A stretch of DNA of 59,232 nucleotides from Thermodesulfobacteriota bacterium (GTDB taxonomy: Bacteria; Desulfobacterota; Thermodesulfobacteria; Thermodesulfobacteriales; Thermodesulfobacteriaceae), in the NCBI GenBank assembly GCA_030550555.1, contig JAUQPD010000009.1:1-59232 (forward strand). The letters run 5' to 3'. The first letter of the stretch is position 1, and each line of letters opens with the position of its first letter. The translations under genes were made by a program, and so were the position numbers. Of this stretch, positions 703 to 26,311 are shown piece after piece. The notes beneath the pieces were generated by a model. The model was not told the DNA's origin, did not search any database, and worked only from the letters and a program-made list of their open reading frames with translations.

Positions 703-3700
703 TTAACTTATTTTCACGTAGGCCTCCTTAGGAAGTCTGTTAAGAAGGTTCACAGAAATTTCCAGCTCAGTTCCAAAACGAGCAAGCTCTTCTTCGCTGT
801 GAGGAAGTGGACAGATTTCGTGCTTTCCAGGTAAATAGCCATGAATAGGACATACAGAAAAGGTTGGAGTAATTGAAAAATAGGGAAGCCTAAAGCGGTG
901 AACAATTGCTCTAACTAACTCTTTAACAACTTTTCTATCAGTAATCTCTTCTCCAACAAAGAGATGTACTACTGTACCACCAGTAAACATAACTTGGAGA
1001 TCATCTTGATGTTGAAGAATTTCAAATATGTCATCAGTATAGTATACGGGAAGATGGACTGAATTAGTGTAATAAGGCACTTCAGGTGTTCCCTGGGTCT
1101 TTATTCGGGGGAATTTCTTTTTGTCAATCTTAGCAAGTCTGTAGCTCGTTCCCTCTGCTGGAGTTGCTTCAAGATTATATAGATTACCTGTTGTTTCCTG
1201 GAATTCTGAAATCTTCTCCCTCATAAATTGAAGCACCTTAAGGGCAAATTCTTTACCTGATTTGGTGTAAATGGGTTCTCCAAGGAAGTTGATACAGGCT
1301 TCATTCATACCAACGATTCCAATTGTTGAGAAGTGATTGGCCCAGTATTGTCCTCTTGCCTCTTTTATGGAGCTCAGATAGACCTTTGAATAGGGATAGA
1401 GCCCCTTTTCAGTAAAGTCCTCAATTACTTTTCGCTTGATTTCAAGAGAGATCTTAGCAAGTTCCATTAAGCGTTCAAGACGCTCAAAAAATTCCTCTTC
1501 ACAGGTTGAGAGAAAGGCTATTCTGGGGAGATTTATAGTGACCACTCCAATAGAGCCAGTTAATGGATTTGCTCCAAAGAGGCCACCTCCTCTTTTTCTA
1601 AGTTCCCTCTGATCAAGCCTAAGCCTACAGCAATTAAAGGAAATTTGCCCTAAAGAGTGAACAAAGAGGTGATTCCTTTCAAGCTCAAGATCATAAAATT
1701 CTATATCCTGAGAAAATTCTTGATAATTGACCTCAGAGACCTTAACTAAGTAAATGTCTCCTTCAAGAAGTTTTTTGCTCTCTTCAGTATGGGCATCATA
1801 TTTACTCAGAGTTGAAAGGCCAACCAACCTCCCTTTATGTAATCCAGGCACCCTGGCAGTTGATAAGGATAGCCAGCCTGGAACCCTCTCAGACAAAATA
1901 GGAGTTGTCAGCCAGTTATTAATAGCTTTGGTCTCCTTTTTAGCATGTTGGAGATATATTCTTTGACTATTTTTCCGTTCTTGGTAAATTACTGGTTTGC
2001 CGATAAGTGAGAAAAGGAGTACGAGATCTCTTGCCAATTGCGGATCGTTAAGGTGAATTTCTTTTCTTCTTTGATACCCATCTCCTAACATAAAATAATC
2101 AAGAAAAGACTCTATAACTGACTTTGGACTATTGAAAAGCACCTGGGGGATTTTTCCATATTTTCTAAAGCCAATAGAGTAGAGCTTTCTTGCAAGGTCT
2201 GCCTTATGGACATATAAGTAGTATGTGTTATAGCGCGGATCTGCCTTTTCTTGGGGAATTATACCAAGTTTAGTTTTTATAAGCTCTTTTATATGATTGA
2301 TAAGGTCTGTATCATTTTTATTAAAGTTAAATTGGAGGCCCTTTGGTTCGCCATAGTGCTTCATGTTTTTTCTGGTTTCATAGATGTAATTTCCATCTGC
2401 AGTGAAAAAGCCAAGGATCTTTGCTAAGTCTTCATCCAAGATGAGATAACCAATTCGTTGATATTCCTTTTGGAAAACCTCTTCCTGAGCCCTTTTTACT
2501 GAAAGCAAAAGATCTCCAGGTTGAATATCTTTTGCCCACTTCATAACAATTCCATCTTCTGTGTAGACAGGGACTGGATGTTTCAAAGTGTAAAGAGCTC
2601 GTTTTCCATCTTGAGTTTTAATTTCCACAGCTTTTCTATCTACCACTCTAAGAAATCTCTTAACCCCCACCCACTCAAGTTTGTAAGTCTTAGGATTAAG
2701 GGATAACACCTTTAGTCCTCTATCTTTTCTACATTCAGCCCAACCTTCGGCGTCAAAGTCTCCTTCTTTGTAAGTTTCTACCAGCTCTTTTATAGAGACC
2801 TTTCTTATGTTATCGGAGTTTTTGATAAGGAGCTCTTCATCTGCATGGAGACACATACTTCTTGCATCATCGGGATCCATGTCAGAATTTACAAAATTGG
2901 CAAAGTAGGGGATACCATACTTTCTTGTCATTTCCCAGAGGGGCTCATAATCAGGATTATCCCAGTCAAAGTCCTTTGTGATGTTATAGGTCGGTATCGG
3001 GAAGGTAAAAATCCTTCCTTTGGCATCGCCTGCCATCATGAGCTCACAAAAGGCCCTGTTAATCATTGACATCTCTTCGTGAAACTCTCCATATACCTCA
3101 TCCCTTGGTTTTCCACCTATCAAGACATTGGTGTTGGCATATAATTTTGAGGGCTTAAGATCAAAGGTGAGATTGGTAAAGGGAGTGTTACCTGTTATAA
3201 AGATCTGGCCTGCCCTTCTTGCTATTACTGTCTCATTTTCAGTATGAACTGACCAAATGACACCACTATAGGAAACTTCTTTAATCTCCTGGATGTAATC
3301 TGTCTTTGTCTCAGTTAGAGTCAGTTCGTAGCGAAGTTTTTTATTACCTCCTGAGGGCTCTCTTGTCTTAATTCCTACGTTGTATCCTGCAAGGACAGCA
3401 ACTCCAGCTAAACCATCTGCAATGGCCCTGTCTGTAGTAACAATCCTTACTCTTCCTCCCTCAATCCAACCATCTCCCTTGGCATAGGTCTCAAGAAAGA
3501 GTCTTGCCTGTCTTTTACTTAGCTTGTAGAGAAAGGTGGGAAATTTTTTGCTGGGATTTCCTAAGACTGCATGGACATACTTACTTGATGAGGGATTGAG
3601 CCTTATGTGGATGCATATACCCCAACTTTCTTGTTCTCTTTCTGTGTAGCTTAAGCCAAGGCAATTGAGAAGCCCAATTATCTCCTCGTAATTATCTTTA

Positions 3701-6210
3701 TTTTTTTCTTTAGATTGATATATACTTATCCTATTTGAGCCATCCTTCTCTATGGACCCCTCAGCAAGGACCCAGGCAATAAGTTTTAACTCTTCGTCAC
3801 TTATAGGATAGTCTGGATTAACGTTCTCTCCACAGACAGGAATGGGAATAGGTGATTTGAAAGACAAAAGCTCCTCAATCGGTTGAAGAGTGTAGGTCTC
3901 GGTGTTAAAGACCTGTCTCACTACACGATGGCGAGGAGAGATGAGTTGATCTTGATTTCTATTCTTTAGGTTATACATTGGCCCTTCATAGTGTCTCTTA
4001 AAGACCTGGGTTACTCTTTTTACCTCTATAGCCCCTGTATTGAGATTAAAGGTGTATATTTCCACCCCCTCATCTATGTCTTTGTAGGTCTTCCAGCCCT
4101 CAGGAGTAAGGATTTCTGTATCTTCAGAGAGGCACTGAAAACCAACTCTTGTAGGCACATTTAGGTTGAAGAGGAATTCCTGCATGCACTGTTTGACCTC
4201 TTGATAGGAGAGCTTGTCGTATCTTACAAAGGGGGCAAGTAAGGTATCAAAATTAGAAAAGGCCTGAGCTCCTGCACTTTCTCCCTGGAGGGTATAGAAA
4301 AAGTTTACAATCTGCCCAAGGGCACTTCTAAAATGCTTGGGAGGAGCACTTTCTACCTTTCCAGAAACCCCACCAAAACCCCTCAATAGGAGATCATAAA
4401 GATCCCACCCCACACAGTTGTGATTCCACATGCCATTTACAAGTAAGGTTCCACTCTCGGTGGTGATATCGTAGATCCACTCATCAGGAATCTCAACTTC
4501 CAGGTTATTTGTCACTTTATGCCAGGCATCGCGGTCTTCATCGTGCCAGGCCTTTTTAGAATTCTCTGCTTGGGCATACTTCTCAGAGGGTAGCTCAATC
4601 TCTGCAATTTTTCTGAAACTTAAACCATAAAGGGGATAATTTTGTCTGATCTCACGTCCCTGATAGATTCTGATAAACCCTTGACCCTCAACTGCTCTAT
4701 CTTGAGGGGTAAAGCCAAGCAGGGTCAGTATAACCGCAAGACCTTCAAGGAGCTCCCTGGAAGAGAGTCTCAAATTAAGCACGGCCCTACAGTTTTCAAT
4801 ATTCCCATCTCCATCAAGGAGTCCTCCCACTAAGCCTTTAAGAAAGGAAAGATCGTATTGGAGACTTTTCAATGGAAGACTTTTATTTCTTGCGCCAGGT
4901 TCAATTCCAAAAACCCTCTGAAAGAGGAACCTTAGAAAGGGATTCACAATGCTTAGTTCATAAAAATCTCCCTTTCTCTGAATAAATCCCAAATAGCCAG
5001 TTTTACGTAGCCCTTCATTTAGCTCAAGGAGCTTCCCAAGCTCTTTTTGCACAATGGAAATAGTCTTTGGAGAGTCTTCATCATAGGAGAGATATCCCTC
5101 TGCAAGGACAAAACCAACAAAATATCCAAAATCTTCTGTAAGATGAATATATCTTGGAGAAGAAAAGGTCCTTGTGTGTAAAATCCCCTCTTCCTCTCCA
5201 AAAGAAAACTCTTCAATAGGGAGACCATTAAAATATACTTCAGTCCTTCCAAAGAAATATGACTTATCCTTGAGGACTTCCTCAAGGAGGTCTATCTTTT
5301 TTATCTGAAAGAGACTCTCTCCTGAGAGAAGTCTTTTTAAATCGGCAGTAAAGAGTTCATCCTTATCTTCTAAGACATCTGATGCCTGTTTTTCGCCAGC
5401 TCTGGTAATCATGGGATGATCCTCTGTAACAATCACGGATCTTCCGCCTCTGTTTTCAATAAACCGCATCTTTTTGTCTTTTCTTTTTTTAGTGACCCTT
5501 GTCACTTTAACCCAACCATCCTTGTCAAGAACATAGAGGTCTTCGGGCCTTTTGGCAAAGGCTTTTCTCCTTTTTTCAAGGATGTATTCCTCTTCCTCTA
5601 AGAGTTCGTAAAGTTTTTCGAATGAGAGAAGAAGAAGCTCTCCCTTGTATTTGGCGATCACAATTTCCTTGCCATAGTAAGTATAAGGTCCAAGGACGCC
5701 AAGATCGTGGATATGAAAATCTCCCTCCTTATGGGCCCTTGCCACCTCTTCAGGATAGAGTTTTTCCAACCAATAGCGAGCAACAATGGAAGAGCTCACA
5801 TGGAAGTTTAGACCCTGAAGGCTATAGTTCATATTGGAATTCTCTCTTACTCGCCAGTCCTCCTGCCCCAAATACTCCTCAATGAGGTTTATTCCATCAA
5901 CAAGAGCCTGAGAAATCTCCCTTGCCTGTCGTCTCTTTTCACGATAAAGAATATAGGCCTTAGCTACCTCAGGATACCCCCTCTCCATTAGGGTTCTCTC
6001 AATGAGGTCCTGTATAGTCTCCACATGCGGGATGTCTCCCTTCTTAAAGTAGTTCCGATATAATTGCACAGAGACCGCATCTGCAATCTTCTCAGCATCC
6101 TCCTTACTTCCTTGCCCAACAGCTCTCATCGCCTTAAAAACCGCATTCACAATTCTCACCCTGCTAAAAGGTACAACCTTACCACTACGCTTCCTAACGA
6201 GAGGCTCCAT
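703..6210 (-). CDS. nrdD: Anaerobic (class III) ribonucleoside-triphosphate reductase, large chain, with three inteins
   Basis: NrdD reduces NTPs to dNTPs by glycyl-radical chemistry. The 1835-residue precursor comprises an ATP-cone (about residues 1-95), the catalytic barrel, and a zinc site CPIHGYLPGKHEICP near 1787-1801. Removing inteins at residues 177-598, 693-1008 and 1120-1526 leaves about 690 residues and restores the family motifs GPY-CVGWDL, TRVGFQ-TPFTNL and DDARSM-CCRLRLD. The usual C-terminal glycyl-radical segment is missing; the product ends about 35 residues after the zinc site and the segment is encoded by the next ORF. GAGGAGG lies just upstream of the ATG. Two NrdR-like boxes and a promoter precede the gene. 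No nrdG activase is nearby. Confidence 0.95.
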   Translation of the reverse strand: MEPLVRKRSGKVVPFSRVRIVNAVFKAMRAVGQGSKEDAEKIADAVSVQLYRNYFKKGDIPHVETIQDLIERTLMERGYPEVAKAYILYREKRRQAREISQALVDGINLIEEYLGQEDWRVRENSNMNYSLQGLNFHVSSSIVARYWLEKLYPEEVARAHKEGDFHIHDLGVLGPYTYYGKEIVIAKYKGELLLLSFEKLYELLEEEEYILEKRRKAFAKRPEDLYVLDKDGWVKVTRVTKKRKDKKMRFIENRGGRSVIVTEDHPMITRAGEKQASDVLEDKDELFTADLKRLLSGESLFQIKKIDLLEEVLKDKSYFFGRTEVYFNGLPIEEFSFGEEEGILHTRTFSSPRYIHLTEDFGYFVGFVLAEGYLSYDEDSPKTISIVQKELGKLLELNEGLRKTGYLGFIQRKGDFYELSIVNPFLRFLFQRVFGIEPGARNKSLPLKSLQYDLSFLKGLVGGLLDGDGNIENCRAVLNLRLSSRELLEGLAVILTLLGFTPQDRAVEGQGFIRIYQGREIRQNYPLYGLSFRKIAEIELPSEKYAQAENSKKAWHDEDRDAWHKVTNNLEVEIPDEWIYDITTESGTLLVNGMWNHNCVGWDLYDLLLRGFGGVSGKVESAPPKHFRSALGQIVNFFYTLQGESAGAQAFSNFDTLLAPFVRYDKLSYQEVKQCMQEFLFNLNVPTRVGFQCLSEDTEILTPEGWKTYKDIDEGVEIYTFNLNTGAIEVKRVTQVFKRHYEGPMYNLKNRNQDQLISPRHRVVRQVFNTETYTLQPIEELLSFKSPIPIPVCGENVNPDYPISDEELKLIAWVLAEGSIEKDGSNRISIYQSKEKNKDNYEEIIGLLNCLGLSYTEREQESWGICIHIRLNPSSSKYVHAVLGNPSKKFPTFLYKLSKRQARLFLETYAKGDGWIEGGRVRIVTTDRAIADGLAGVAVLAGYNVGIKTREPSGGNKKLRYELTLTETKTDYIQEIKEVSYSGVIWSVHTENETVIARRAGQIFITGNTPFTNLTFDLKPSKLYANTNVLIGGKPRDEVYGEFHEEMSMINRAFCELMMAGDAKGRIFTFPIPTYNITKDFDWDNPDYEPLWEMTRKYGIPYFANFVNSDMDPDDARSMCLHADEELLIKNSDNIRKVSIKELVETYKEGDFDAEGWAECRKDRGLKVLSLNPKTYKLEWVGVKRFLRVVDRKAVEIKTQDGKRALYTLKHPVPVYTEDGIVMKWAKDIQPGDLLLSVKRAQEEVFQKEYQRIGYLILDEDLAKILGFFTADGNYIYETRKNMKHYGEPKGLQFNFNKNDTDLINHIKELIKTKLGIIPQEKADPRYNTYYLYVHKADLARKLYSIGFRKYGKIPQVLFNSPKSVIESFLDYFMLGDGYQRRKEIHLNDPQLARDLVLLFSLIGKPVIYQERKNSQRIYLQHAKKETKAINNWLTTPILSERVPGWLSLSTARVPGLHKGRLVGLSTLSKYDAHTEESKKLLEGDIYLVKVSEVNYQEFSQDIEFYDLELERNHLFVHSLGQISFNCCRLRLDQRELRKRGGGLFGANPLTGSIGVVTINLPRIAFLSTCEEEFFERLERLMELAKISLEIKRKVIEDFTEKGLYPYSKVYLSSIKEARGQYWANHFSTIGIVGMNEACINFLGEPIYTKSGKEFALKVLQFMREKISEFQETTGNLYNLEATPAEGTSYRLAKIDKKKFPRIKTQGTPEVPYYTNSVHLPVYYTDDIFEILQHQDDLQVMFTGGTVVHLFVGEEITDRKVVKELVRAIVHRFRLPYFSITPTFSVCPIHGYLPGKHEICPLPHSEEELARFGTELEISVNLLNRLPKEAYVKIS
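1633..2853 (-). other. Intein 3 of NrdD (residues 1120-1526), LAGLIDADG type
   Basis: This 407-residue insertion lies between DDARSM and CCRLRLD, next to the paired cysteines of the conserved loop. It begins CLHADEELL (Cys1), has TLKH as block B (T1208/H1211), two LAGLIDADG motifs (FFTADGN near 1268 and FMLGDGY near 1373), and ends SFN before Cys at +1. Phe replaces the usual penultimate His. Both endonuclease motifs keep an Asp. Confidence 0.9.
3187..4134 (-). other. Intein 2 of NrdD (residues 693-1008), LAGLIDADG type
   Basis: This 316-residue insertion splits TRVGFQ from TPFTNL. It begins CLSEDTEIL (Cys1), has SPRH at block B in place of TxxH, two LAGLIDADG-like motifs (VLAEGS near 814 and AKGDGW near 910), and ends in ITGN before a Thr at +1. 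The penultimate residue is Gly, not His, a variation known in some inteins. The joined extein matches the continuous family sequence. Confidence 0.9.
4417..5682 (-). other. Intein 1 of NrdD (residues 177-598), LAGLIDADG type, Thr at position 1
   Basis: This 422-residue insertion separates extein GPY from CVGWDL. It has a TxxH block B (VTEDHP, T262/H265) and two LAGLIDADG motifs (FVLAEGY near 367 and LLDGDGN near 464), both with an acidic residue. It ends in NHN, with penultimate His and terminal Asn, before a Cys at +1. The first residue is Thr rather than the usual Cys or Ser. The open frame through the insertion and intact motifs suggest a functional splicing and homing element. Confidence 0.9.
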
Positions 6211-8403: not shown

Positions 8404-8436
8404 TTGAAAATAAAGTTACAATTAGGGGAGGTTTTT

Positions 8437-10356
8437 ATGAAGGCAAAAGAAGAGATGACAGTCAGAAGCCTTGATAGGGCTATTCAGGTAATGTTTGATA
8501 GAGTGGGTCAATATGGGATTGATACTGTATGGGAGAGATATGTCAAGATGCATCCCCAGTGTAAATTTGGTGATTTAGGATTGTGTTGTAGGATCTGTCT
8601 TCAAGGGCCTTGTAGGATAAATCCTTCAGGAAAGGAACCAAGATATGGAATTTGTGGTGCAGATGCGGATATTATAATTGCTAGAAATCTTGCGAGAGCT
8701 GTATCCGCTGGCACTGCAGGACACTCAGGGCATGCAAAACATCTTGCACATACTCTTCTGAAGGTCTCAGAGGGTAAGACAAAAGATTACACTATAAAGG
8801 ACCCTACCAAATTGAGAACAGTGGCCCAGAGGATTGGAGTTATTATTAATCATAATAGTGAGCAGGAGTTAGCAAAAGAAGTTGCTTTGCAAGCCTTAGG
8901 AGATTTCCCAGAAAGAGATGAGGGTGTTCTTTGGGTTACTTCAATTGTGAATGAAGAGAGGTTGAGACTCTTTCAGAAATTTGAGCTTTTACCAAAGGGG
9001 ATAGATCATGAAGTCTCTGAGATTATGCACAGGACACTTTATGGAACCGATGGAGATGCTTTAAATCTCCTCATGGGAGCTATGAGATGTGCTCTTGCTG
9101 ATCTCGCAGGATGTTACATGGCAACAGACTTAGCGGATATACTTTTTGGAACACCAGTTCCTATAGAAACCTCCTCAAATCTTGGCGTTTTAAAGAGAGA
9201 CTGGGTAAATATAGCAGTCCATGGTCACAACCCCATCCTATCGGAAATTATTGTGCAAAAGGCAAAGGAAATGGAAAATGAGGCGAAAGCGGTTGGAGCT
9301 CAAGGTATTAATATTGTAGGGATCTGTTGTACTGGAAATGAGCTATTATCACGTCATGGTATACCTGCTTGCACTCACTCAGTAAGCCAGGAGATGGCAT
9401 TACTGACAGGTGCGGTAGATGCAATAGTTGTAGACTATCAGTGTGTTATGCCTGCCCTTGCTGGAATTGCTCAGTGTACTGGAAGTAAATTGATCACAAC
9501 TATGTCAATCTGTAAGATTCAGGGAGCTTATCATGTTAGCTTTTCCGAAGAGCTTGCAGGAAATAAGGCGGAGGAAATTATAGGACTTGCCTTAGACACC
9601 TTTAAAAAAAGAAACACAAATGGAAAGGGCGTCTTTATTCCAGAAATTACCACCCGAGTTGTTGCTGGATTTTCAGTTGAGGCCATTGTGGACATTTTCA
9701 AAAGGGTAAACAGTGAAGCCCCGTTAAAGCCTCTTGTTGAAGCAATTGTGAATGGGCAGATTAGAGGGGTTTGTCTTTTTGCTGGATGTAATAATGTCAA
9801 GGTGCCTCAGGATCGGAATTTTGTCTCAATTGCCAGGGACCTATTAAAAAATAATATTCTCATTTTGGCAACAGGATGTGGAGCTGGTGCCTTAATGAGG
9901 CATGGGTTCATGGATCCCATGAATGTAGATGAGTTATGCGGAGAATCACTAAAGAAGGTTCTAAAAATTCTTGGGGAAGCCTACGGTTTCAAACACCCTC
10001 TTCCTGCAGTCTTACATTTGGGATCTTGTGTAGATAACTCGAGAGCAATAGCCCTACTTGTGAGCCTTGCGAAATATCTTAATCTTGACACAGATAAAAT
10101 GCCAGTTGTCGCCTCAGCACCAGAAGCAGTCTCCGAAAAGGCAATTTCTATAGGTCTCTATGCGGTAGCAATGGGTGTTCCTACTCATGTTGGGGTTAAA
10201 CTACCTATAGAGGGAAGTCCAGCTATAGGACGTATCCTCACCGAGGGATTGAAAGAAATTACGGGTGGATATTTTATCTATGAACTTGACCCAGAGCTTT
10301 CGAGTCAAAAATTACTGAAAGCTATAGATGAAAGAAGAAGACAATTGGGAATGTAA
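8437..10356 (+). CDS. cooS: Anaerobic Ni-Fe carbon monoxide dehydrogenase, catalytic subunit
   Basis: CooS interconverts CO and CO2. The 639-residue product has the N-terminal cluster cysteines C42, C50, C51, C54 and C59 (LCCRICLQGPCR) for the D and B clusters. All expected C-cluster ligands are visible in order: His in VHGHNP, and Cys in GICCTGNE, DYQCVMP, FAGCNN, ATGCGAG and GSCVDN. I start at ATG 8437 because GGGGAGG is 5 bases upstream; an in-frame TTG at 8404 lacks such a site. It stands alone: no CooF ferredoxin, CooC nickel chaperone, hydrogenase or acetyl-CoA synthase subunits are adjacent. Electron acceptor and physiological direction therefore cannot be told from context. Confidence 0.95.
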   Translation: MKAKEEMTVRSLDRAIQVMFDRVGQYGIDTVWERYVKMHPQCKFGDLGLCCRICLQGPCRINPSGKEPRYGICGADADIIIARNLARAVSAGTAGHSGHAKHLAHTLLKVSEGKTKDYTIKDPTKLRTVAQRIGVIINHNSEQELAKEVALQALGDFPERDEGVLWVTSIVNEERLRLFQKFELLPKGIDHEVSEIMHRTLYGTDGDALNLLMGAMRCALADLAGCYMATDLADILFGTPVPIETSSNLGVLKRDWVNIAVHGHNPILSEIIVQKAKEMENEAKAVGAQGINIVGICCTGNELLSRHGIPACTHSVSQEMALLTGAVDAIVVDYQCVMPALAGIAQCTGSKLITTMSICKIQGAYHVSFSEELAGNKAEEIIGLALDTFKKRNTNGKGVFIPEITTRVVAGFSVEAIVDIFKRVNSEAPLKPLVEAIVNGQIRGVCLFAGCNNVKVPQDRNFVSIARDLLKNNILILATGCGAGALMRHGFMDPMNVDELCGESLKKVLKILGEAYGFKHPLPAVLHLGSCVDNSRAIALLVSLAKYLNLDTDKMPVVASAPEAVSEKAISIGLYAVAMGVPTHVGVKLPIEGSPAIGRILTEGLKEITGGYFIYELDPELSSQKLLKAIDERRRQLGM

Positions 10357-10415: not shown

Positions 10416-11654
10416 TTAGCTATAATCTATTTTATAGTTCAATTTATGTACAGTGAATTCTACACCCTTTCTGTGAATATACTTAACTACTATCTCCAAA
10501 TTTACGGTCTTAGTTTGAGGATCAAACACTAAGTAAAATTTTTCAGTTGTAGTTGCTCTGGGAGGCAGAGTATAATCAATTATGTCCTTAATTTGCCATG
10601 CGCCATATCTTCTGTCGCCATCAAAATCAAGTCCAATTTGAAAATATTCTTTTACCTCTTTTGCAAGAATCTTGCCAGTTTGAGCTGATTTGGCGGTCAC
10701 CTCAAGGACCACCTTTGATGTCCAAAGTCAGCCATCTGGTATACGATGCCCTGCTCTGTTTATCAAGTCAATAGTCAGGGCAAGAGCAGGCCGCCACTGC
10801 TGATCCTTAGGTAATTCAGGATTTAGATCGGTGAGTTTTCTTATATGGACGTCAATTTCTATGCCCTCTTTAAGCATTTCAACATTGTAGGCACCAGGAA
10901 AGGTGTGTCCTCTATTTTTAGCCTTCATATGGCATTCTTGACAAGTCTTTTGCCCGCCCATTGCTACATAATGGTCTCTATAGCTCTGGGAGAGAGTGTT
11001 ACACATTATGGGTTCTCCATCAGGAGCAATAAATACTCCATGACATTGCATGCAAAAATTAGAGTTTTGCAAGAAGGGGTTTCTTTTTGTGTCGTGGAAG
11101 GGAAGCTTTGCGGTTATGTTGGGTCCATAGATTACCTTGGGAGAGGGTCTCTCTGGTGGATGGAGGGCTTTAAGGTTGTGACAGACATAACAGCTAACAT
11201 TTAGACGCTCAAGTAGGGCCTTTGCCTTGGGATCATTTCTATCAGCATATGCCACAATTGCGTCAGCTATCTCCCTGATAAATTTGTCGGATGCAAATTC
11301 AAGTTGGGGTGCATGACAGGAAAAACACTTCATCATTTCAGCCTTAAGACCTCCGGGTTTCTCCGCTCTTGCCTTTCTCTCCTCTTCACCATAGATCCCA
11401 AATTTTATGAAATTAGCTAGCCCTCCAATAGAATGGAGAATAGATTCGTGATGGAGAGATTTTTTCCATTCTTCATAGACATTGGCATGACAACTCGCAC
11501 AGTTAGAAGAGGGCGGAAATAATTTCTCAAGATCTTCAATAGAATCTACCAGAATATCCTTCTGTGGGGTAGCACTAAATAAACCTGTAGTAATAATTAA
11601 AGATAGTCCAACAGAAAAGCCGAAAAATAAAGACCTAACCCTGTTCCTCTTCAT
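10416..11654 (-). CDS. Pentaheme c-type cytochrome, probable selenoprotein (ExtKL-like), in-frame TGA at codon 309
   Basis: The N-terminus has a Sec-type signal (MKRNRVRSLFFGF then a hydrophobic run). Five CXXCH heme sites follow: CASCH, CFSCH, CYVCH, CMQCH and CQECH. After GHRIPDG the frame meets TGA, then continues open as LWTSKVVLEVTAK for 103 codons to a true stop, giving 412 residues if TGA is read as Sec. The C-terminal part is soluble and beta-rich. I recall a family named multiheme cytochrome (seleno)protein ExtKL, whose two halves were once annotated separately; this layout fits it, but that is memory, not a search. GGAGGGG precedes the ATG. The product is likely periplasmic and part of electron transfer toward the cell surface. 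The alternative is a recent nonsense mutation. Confidence 0.8.
10692..10713 (-). promoter_or_regulatory. SECIS-candidate hairpin just after the in-frame TGA
   Basis: Starting 14 bases after TGA (10730-10728), GGTGGTC pairs with GACCGCC over 7 bp (one G-U) around an 8-base loop CTTGAGGT. The distance from TGA to the apical loop, 21 bases, lies in the range usual for bacterial SECIS elements. The loop does not start with G, a common feature of such elements, so the match is imperfect. A second, closer 5-bp hairpin (CTTTG/CAAAG) begins directly after TGA. Confidence 0.45.
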
Positions 11655-11851
11655 AGGCCCCTCCTTTGAAAATTTATATAAAAATTAAAATATCTAATTA
11701 AGTATAGAAGTCAAGAATTCTTCTTCTAAATTTACAAATTTTTAAATAAATCTTAAAAATTTCTAATAATTTTAAATTAATTTGTAAATACTCAATTTTA
11801 AAAATTTTAAAGAAAATCCTTGAGGCAAAGGGCTGTATTCAGTCGATTTTC
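11655..11851. other. AT-rich intergenic region, no gene
   Basis: About 200 bases between the divergent cytochrome gene and tRNA-Ser, composed almost only of A and T runs in its middle. I see no ORF or RNA gene. It should hold the cytochrome promoter, but no single -35/-10 pair stands out. Confidence 0.5.
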
Positions 11852-24587: not shown

Positions 24588-25283
24588 CTACTGGTCAAGT
24601 TCTGATTCTCTGGTTTTCTGTGATTTATTTTTCCTGCTCATAATTCTTTGATACCAGATACTATGCCTGTGCTTTACATATTCTTCATCCACATAACCTG
24701 TAATGAGCGATTTTAAAAGGGGCCAATTAGCCCTTATAGCAACTGCAAAAAAGATATGCACGAAGAATACAAGGATAAAGAATCCTCCGAAAAGGGTATG
24801 AAGAAGATTAAGGAGAGCCTCTGTCTTTGGATTAAATATGACCCATTCTAGATTTTTAAGGACCTTTAGAATACCAGTTATCAATACCGCACTTATTGCA
24901 AAGGTCCATCCCAGATAGGCGTACTTCTGCTCAGGAAGCCATTTATCTGAAGGTGGCTCCTTCATCAGACCAAAGGAGGCAAGGATCATCTTGATTGAAG
25001 CTATAAAATCACCTCTTCTTGGGAGAAGACCAAAGTCCTTTCTTAAGGCATGATAGAAGATGTGAAATAGGACCATGAATGTAAAAAAAATAGCAAAGAT
25101 ATAGTGAAGCTTAGTTAGAAGATAAAAGTCTGCACTCCATCTGAAGCCAGGAATTTCAGTGATATAATATCTCTTGAATAGAGGTAAACATCCAAGGCCT
25201 GTGAAAATCAGCATTATTCCTGAGAAAGCTATAACCCAGTGTTCGAGTATTACGATTAAATCATGACGCTTAATTTTACTCAT
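24588..25283 (-). CDS. Membrane cytochrome b subunit (FdhC/FdnI-like)
   Basis: The 231-residue integral membrane protein has four main hydrophobic segments and histidines positioned for two b hemes (HDLIVILEHW, KLHYIFAIFF, LLHTLFGGFF, FFVHIFFAVA). It ends in a basic cytoplasmic tail. Such subunits take electrons from an attached Fe-S protein to menaquinone. It lies 2 bases after the Fe-S subunit gene. No molybdopterin or other catalytic subunit follows, so the substrate is unknown. Confidence 0.85.
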   Translation of the reverse strand: MSKIKRHDLIVILEHWVIAFSGIMLIFTGLGCLPLFKRYYITEIPGFRWSADFYLLTKLHYIFAIFFTFMVLFHIFYHALRKDFGLLPRRGDFIASIKMILASFGLMKEPPSDKWLPEQKYAYLGWTFAISAVLITGILKVLKNLEWVIFNPKTEALLNLLHTLFGGFFILVFFVHIFFAVAIRANWPLLKSLITGYVDEEYVKHRHSIWYQRIMSRKNKSQKTRESELDQ

Positions 25284-25285
25284 AC

Positions 25286-26251
25286 TTAAACCTCCTCGTC
25301 CTTCTTGTTCCTTGTAATTAGACCCGATACAATGCCTGTTGCCACTCCAAGAATACCCGCACCAAGAATCACCTTGCCCCAGGGATTTATCTCCTCAAGA
25401 TACCTGTTCTTGACAACAACAGGCATTTGAAAAACTGCCTTCATTTCTCTCAATTTGACATCAATTTTCTCAAAGGGTATTTTAGAAAGATAAAGGGTAG
25501 CAGTCCCTCCATTCTGAACATCACCATAGATGAAAAGTCCCTCATTTTTGACTCTTTCGCTTGCCTCTTTGTAGATCTCTTCACGAGGGCCAAATTTATA
25601 GACCGCATTCTCACCAAGGCGCTCTCTACAGGCAACAACACAGGCTGGTTCTTCACCTCTTTTTATTCGTCTATCGCAGAGATCACACTTATACATCACC
25701 CCACCACCAGCTAACTTAGGTAGAAGTTTTAGATAAAGCCCAACTCCAGCTTGTCTTTGGGGAATTTGCCAGGGACAGACGTCTCTACACTTAGCCCCTC
25801 CGAAACAGATATTATGGTCTATCACGGTATTGCCTTCTGGTTGTTTGGTAAGTGCACCAAAGGGACAACCTTTAACGCATGGCGGGGAATCGCAGTGCAT
25901 ACATCTTCTCGGAATATATAGGGTTTGACCATCAATCTCAACTTTTTGAATAAATAACCAATTATAGGGGGTCAGCCTTGTGATGAGCTCTCGTTTATCA
26001 GACCAGTCTTCGTAGGTCTTTCTCGGCCAATAGGGAGGAATTGGTTTGATAGGCTCAGGGAAACGATCCTTGTTTTCCTCTCTACAGGCTCTTACACATC
26101 TTGGAATAGGCTCGTCCTCACAGCCATCACATTTGGTAATATCAATTAGGGTGGCAAATTTGCCAGGATAAGCCTGGCCCTCTTTGGGAGTAAGAGCTAA
26201 AGCACCTAAAAGTCCAGCTAATTTAAAAAATTGTCTTCGACTTATGTCCAT
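25286..26251 (-). CDS. Tat-exported four-cluster Fe-S subunit (FdhB/HybA-like)
   Basis: The 321-residue protein starts MDISRRQFFKLAG, a twin-arginine signal. It has four cysteine groups: CDGCEDEPIPRC, CMHCDSPPCVKGCP, CFGGAKCRDVCPW and CDLCDRR...CVVAC, fitting four [4Fe-4S] clusters. A C-terminal membrane anchor follows (VILGAGILGVATGIVSGLI). I chose ATG 26251, since the purine-rich GGAGGAGAGGGAG directly precedes it, rather than ATG 26266, which has no such site. With the next gene it forms a membrane-anchored periplasmic electron-transfer module. The catalytic partner is missing here. Confidence 0.88.
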   Translation of the reverse strand: MDISRRQFFKLAGLLGALALTPKEGQAYPGKFATLIDITKCDGCEDEPIPRCVRACREENKDRFPEPIKPIPPYWPRKTYEDWSDKRELITRLTPYNWLFIQKVEIDGQTLYIPRRCMHCDSPPCVKGCPFGALTKQPEGNTVIDHNICFGGAKCRDVCPWQIPQRQAGVGLYLKLLPKLAGGGVMYKCDLCDRRIKRGEEPACVVACRERLGENAVYKFGPREEIYKEASERVKNEGLFIYGDVQNGGTATLYLSKIPFEKIDVKLREMKAVFQMPVVVKNRYLEEINPWGKVILGAGILGVATGIVSGLITRNKKDEEV

Positions 26252-26311
26252 CTCCCTCTCCTCCATGCAAAATACAATATAATATTAAATCATTTACTAA
26301 AGAATTCAAGA

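Follow-up and report, generated by a model that had tools for sequence, protein, structure and literature searches.

A predicted selenocysteine-containing pentaheme cytochrome of the ExtKL (MccSep) family and its cysteine-containing paralogue in a genome of the Thermodesulfobacteriota

The multiheme c-type cytochrome (seleno)protein ExtKL (NCBIfam NF040886) is counted among the prokaryotic selenoprotein families in a 2026 review (PMC13188914). Selenocysteine (Sec) was predicted in the ExtKL protein of Geobacter sulfurreducens, encoded by GSU2937-2936, and the authors of that study mention preliminary evidence of a role in selenite reduction (PMC5877670). Structures of a relative, MccSep, have been deposited in the PDB both for the wild type (9wt8, 9wta, and 9wtb, with Sec325) and for the U325A variant (9wt9 and 9wtc), so that, to judge by the names of these entries, Sec in this relative is experimentally supported.

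The gene considered here, referred to as extKL-like, lies within a window of 59,232 nucleotides, namely, the whole stretch of DNA analysed (contig JAUQPD010000009.1 of assembly GCA_030550555.1). On the minus strand (11654→10416), an ATG at 11654 opens a frame of 308 codons that contains all five CXXCH motifs and ends at an in-frame TGA (10728..10730); past this codon, the same frame continues for 103 further sense codons (10419..10727) up to a TAA at 10418-10416. Read through, the frame (10416..11654, TAA included) encodes a 412-residue pentaheme c-type cytochrome with a predicted Sec at position 309, right after GHRIPDG, while standard annotation, in which TGA is a stop, would split the gene in two. 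The heme-binding motifs are CASCH (residues 52-56, 11487..11501), which is invariant in 38 homologues, and CFSCH (residues 110-114, 11313..11327), CYVCH (residues 155-159, 11178..11192), CMQCH (residues 201-205, 11040..11054), and CQECH (residues 238-242, 10929..10943), each placed from the translation and the homologue alignment. The ATG is preceded by what reads as a good ribosome-binding site (AAAGGAGGGGCCT, 11655..11667), and a signal-peptide-like N-terminal stretch (MKRNRVRSLFFGFSVGLSLIITTGLFSA, 11571..11654), seen by eye in the translation, suggests that the cytochrome is exported. All of these features are on the minus strand. The original prediction had described the five motifs, the TGA after GHRIPDG, and the 103-codon extension with correct coordinates and counts throughout, leaving only the strand unstated.

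The part of the frame downstream of the TGA has the properties of coding sequence. In dinucleotide shuffles, this stretch remained open in 2 of 20000 replicates, and at least 102 open codons follow 21 of the 2264 TGA triplets on both strands of the window. The tail shares 68% amino acid identity with its nearest orthologue, with a dN of 0.24 and a dS of about 2.4 (2.36), values that point to purifying selection on a stretch evolving as protein.

The read-through product matched the NF040886 model with 354.1 bits over residues 30-409, a span that includes the TGA, and with 346 bits in the genome search, both above the curated cut-off of 250 bits; membership in ExtKL, which the original prediction had proposed, is thereby borne out. 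A Pfam search of the same product returned weak cytochrome matches only. MccSep is homologous over residues 39-380 (E 1.3e-39, 139.6 bits over 342 residues), and residue 309 aligns with X325/A325, directly after GHSIPDG in that protein; X, as in 9wt8, stands for Sec325. The main difference between the two is sequence divergence. The G. sulfurreducens ExtKL and the protein described here have in common five CXXCH motifs, GHxxPDG-U at the same place, a C-terminal domain after Sec, and a TGA with a hairpin downstream. In contrast, Sec is followed by LW in this gene (PDG-U-LW) and by PTPNR in the Geobacter protein (PDG-U-PTPNR), and the classic PTPNR/PSPNR-type ExtKL branches show about 31-36% identity to the Sec309 cytochrome. 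Taken together, the extKL-like gene is predicted, with a probability of roughly 0.95, to encode a selenoprotein of the ExtKL (MccSep) family and a divergent thermophile member of it.

No neighbours of the kind found in the ext cluster (extHIJKLMNOPQS) were detected around the gene. This cluster is typical of Geobacter, although the family model does not define membership by it, whereas the present gene stands outside any such cluster, between a convergent gene of the prismane/CO dehydrogenase family (8404-10356) and a tRNA-Ser gene, with prmA and lipid A genes also nearby, and thus seems to stand alone. Elsewhere in the window, a 1835-residue frame for an anaerobic ribonucleoside-triphosphate reductase (NrdD; 703-6210, minus strand) carries several intein-like insertions, with four separate NRDD stretches, an intein splicing domain, and a LAGLIDADG domain. 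Since the NF040886 model, the literature, and the MccSep structures already cover this kind of protein, and since Sec325 of MccSep aligns with residue 309, the novelty of the protein itself is small. What is new here is a divergent thermophile branch, lacking ext-cluster neighbours, with a Sec/Cys pair of paralogues in one genome; a cysteine paralogue in the same genome also sets this case apart from the G. sulfurreducens ExtKL. The family of Sec-bearing multiheme cytochromes thus extends to likely thermophiles that are far from Geobacter in both sequence and gene setting.

Homologues were collected by a scan of genome contigs and by two genome searches. Relatives of the Sec309 cytochrome occur in Thermodesulfobacteriota, Nitrospirota, and Myxococcota, and the nearest named ones are the Caldimicrobium MAGs SKYB93 (75% identical) and SKYB6 (72% identical), which suggests that the host, a likely thermophile, belongs to Caldimicrobium or a closely related genus. 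A TGA is present at the site in 65 distinct homologous stretches of 66 nt, including those of two genus-mates (G396 and G289); members of this set were selected for a TGA following [DH]G, and therefore its breadth and the residue found at TGA-free sites are what count. In three close relatives that lack TGA, the codon at precisely this position is TGT (Cys; GHRIPDGC); these are a 56% identical paralogue in the same genome (L002, G000:C21:66645-67820) and copies in two genus-mates (L116 and L117). One stop-free family member (L100, in G203) reads AGHAIPDSVSSNHR and has neither Sec nor Cys at the site. Two further members of the genus (G128 and G395) each have two TGA copies, from different branches of the family. 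Among the Cys paralogues, L117 (G289:C11:70619-71827) has an in-frame TAA early in the gene, consistent with a pseudogene or a sequencing error, while the gene is intact in L116, its near twin.

A bacterial SECIS (bSECIS) candidate begins exactly 14 nt past the TGA (10692..10713, minus strand) and is formed by a 7-bp stem, GGUGGUC/GACCGCC (10713-10707 with 10698-10692), closing an 8-nt loop, CUUGAGGU. In the single sequence, hairpin stability is unremarkable (z of -1.06 for 41 nt and -2.04 for 81 nt), and comparative evidence carries the weight. When sequences with the same amino acid were compared at 4- and 6-fold degenerate codons, codon identity was 1.00, 0.86, 0.88, 0.88, and 0.80 at codons +6, +7, +8, +10, and +11 after Sec, exactly over the hairpin, against a mean of 0.283 (sd 0.074) over the gene. 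Across the alignment, 83.3% of cells at the seven pairs hold a standard pair, compared with 20-61% for slid versions of the stem. The covariation score is 0.162 against 0.120 after shuffling, with none of 500 shuffles reaching the observed value under a control that keeps relatedness in, and one pair (G22-C35) is replaced by A-U in a compensatory manner in two homologues (L056 and L098). Roughly half of the sequences lack the outermost pair (18-39), and the next one inward is also frequently absent, which leaves a conserved core of about five pairs. RNAalifold returned an empty consensus fold for the alignment of 65 sequences, and an Rfam search of the window at gathering thresholds found tRNA and tmRNA and no SECIS family. 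In the Cys paralogue of the same genome the hairpin is lost, the stretch folding at -0.7 kcal/mol, and the Cys copies of the genus-mates fold at -9.0 (L116) and -8.2 kcal/mol (L117), compared with about -13 to -16 kcal/mol in the nearest Sec copies. Thus, a conserved SECIS-like hairpin is a candidate element for directing decoding of the UGA.

The genome that contains the window (1.71 Mb in 58 contigs, rated 100% complete) encodes selA (613 bits), selB (371 bits), selD (330 bits), and a tRNA-Sec (selC) with the anticodon TCA (UCA; 84.7 bits). A second Rfam match to tRNA-Sec above the cut-off (L013) is actually a tRNA-Ser with the anticodon TGA, and therefore the genome has a single selC. Two other genes have an in-frame TGA: the alpha subunit of formate dehydrogenase (fdhA), in DCPARV-U-HAPSV, where VU-HAPSV is the classic Sec site of that enzyme, and selD itself (L020, 1438-2535), a selenoprotein gene with the TGA in ASG-U-ASKLP. 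Because all four genes are present and selD and fdhA also carry such codons, the Sec system of this organism is complete-looking, with at least three predicted users. Adjacent cytochrome b561-type and 4Fe-4S subunits resembling formate dehydrogenase gamma and beta subunits are encoded in the window (24588-26266, minus strand), and fdhA of the Sec type lies on a different contig.

The original prediction, which placed Sec in frame at position 309, had called for a comparison of homologues at that position and for a search for selA, selB, selC, and selD; all four genes are in the genome, homologues have either a Sec-type TGA (65 stretches) or, in three close paralogues, Cys, and the predicted 7-bp hairpin 14 bases after the TGA is exact in position and pairs and shows SECIS-like conservation. 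The observations named beforehand as speaking against Sec (a genome lacking sel genes, close homologues with neither Cys nor Sec at the site, and strain-level variants with a sense codon) were not encountered. At the level of sequence, the gene, the decoding machinery, the Sec/Cys site, and the conservation of the hairpin thus all appear supported.

The structure predicted with AlphaFold2 from 38 homologues (pLDDT 88.6, pTM 0.83) comprises a helical, heme-bearing part (residues 39-264) followed by beta strands (residues 265-410); the portion made only on decoding of the TGA is mostly beta strands, with block pLDDT values of 87-98. In the alignment of these homologues, the invariant positions outside the heme motifs include His68, His187, His250, His303, Cys218, and residue 309, and it is plausible that the histidines are distal heme ligands. 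In a fold comparison, the predicted model came closest to the penta-heme cytochrome c552 of Thermochromatium tepidum (5ze8; E 1.6e-16, TM 0.55), which shows weak sequence similarity and, in the alignment, has Ala at the Sec309 site, that is, neither Sec nor Cys. A Cys of 5ze8 aligns with Cys218, so that a selenenylsulfide partnership between Cys218 and Sec309 is a weak idea, given a Cys at the same place in a Sec-free protein.

In the proposed mechanism, a complex of SelB, GTP, and Sec-tRNA, guided by the downstream hairpin, would insert Sec at UGA 309 instead of terminating, and the protein would then be exported to the periplasm or the outer-membrane side and loaded with five hemes. The N-terminal helical part would hold the hemes and a loop of the C-terminal beta-sandwich the GHxxPDG-U site, in which Sec309 would lie close to His303 and both are probably near a heme. 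Sec309 may then provide the redox or nucleophilic centre for an oxidoreductase that receives electrons through the heme chain, and a catalytic role of Sec309 beside a heme is rated as somewhat better than an even bet. The favoured function is accordingly that of an oxidoreductase in the periplasm that employs Sec next to a heme, possibly acting on selenite or sulfur-type substrates. By analogy to the published remarks on the Geobacter ExtKL, the best substrate guess would be selenite or related chalcogen/sulfur oxyanions, although selenite as the main substrate is rather unlikely.

Readings of the TGA other than Sec were weighed against these data. A pseudogene or a sequencing error, in which a codon for Cys or another amino acid had become TGA and only the 308-residue cytochrome is made, would have a precedent in the TAA of the paralogue in genus-mate G289, which indicates that decay or error happens in this group of genes; the same codon is nevertheless TGA in 65 distinct homologous stretches, including those of G396 and G289, the region downstream appears to be under purifying selection, and the sel genes are present. 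The conserved TGA rules out decay as a general account, and for this copy in particular it is highly improbable. The frame would also stay open under any code that gives TGA a sense meaning, such as Trp or another residue inserted through a changed genetic code or simple read-through. Against this, the three nearest TGA-free paralogues have Cys rather than Trp, a tRNA-Sec with a UCA anticodon occurs together with selA, selB, and selD, the TGAs of selD and fdhA are at classic Sec positions, and the PDB relative has Sec325; a changed code was rejected on these grounds and is the least probable of the readings considered.

A regulated dual product is compatible with Sec insertion and differs from it in that UGA would be decoded in part, a 308-residue form would be functional, and selenium supply would switch between the two forms. 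The in-frame TGA could indeed yield mostly truncated product, and since all five heme motifs precede it, heme binding by the short form would still be conceivable. However, a protein ending at the TGA would lack the greater part of a beta-sandwich that is predicted well, and conservation of the His303-Sec309 site suggests that function resides in the full-length form; no regulatory feature was seen in the sequence, and such a switch is considered improbable, if less so than decay or a changed code.

In the tree, the three Cys copies group together as one clade (100/100). It is nested in a larger supported clade (100/99), together with the Sec copies from this genome, from two genus-mates, and from a Thermodesulfovibrionales MAG (L056). 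All branches outside the Cys clade are Sec, and because of this, a single Sec-to-Cys change after duplication would be the simplest account. As a tentative proposal, given slightly less than even odds, one copy kept Sec after a duplication in a Caldimicrobium-like lineage, while the other acquired Cys and lost or weakened its hairpin, and the two divided their tasks, for example, by selenium supply. If this is true, one genome has kept both a Sec and a Cys version of a single pentaheme oxidoreductase, at 56% identity to each other. The two form a natural pair with which to ask what selenium gives a heme enzyme. Other arrangements were observed elsewhere in the family. Tandem second pentaheme copies without TGA lie beside a family member in a Nitrospiraceae MAG (L043, frame 2, residues 3167-3368) and in G203 (L100), and TGA occurs twice in frame in one ExtKL homologue (L113, G395:C6:42765-43934), at the Sec site and again towards the N-terminal part (GTPRTL-U-SMAGT).
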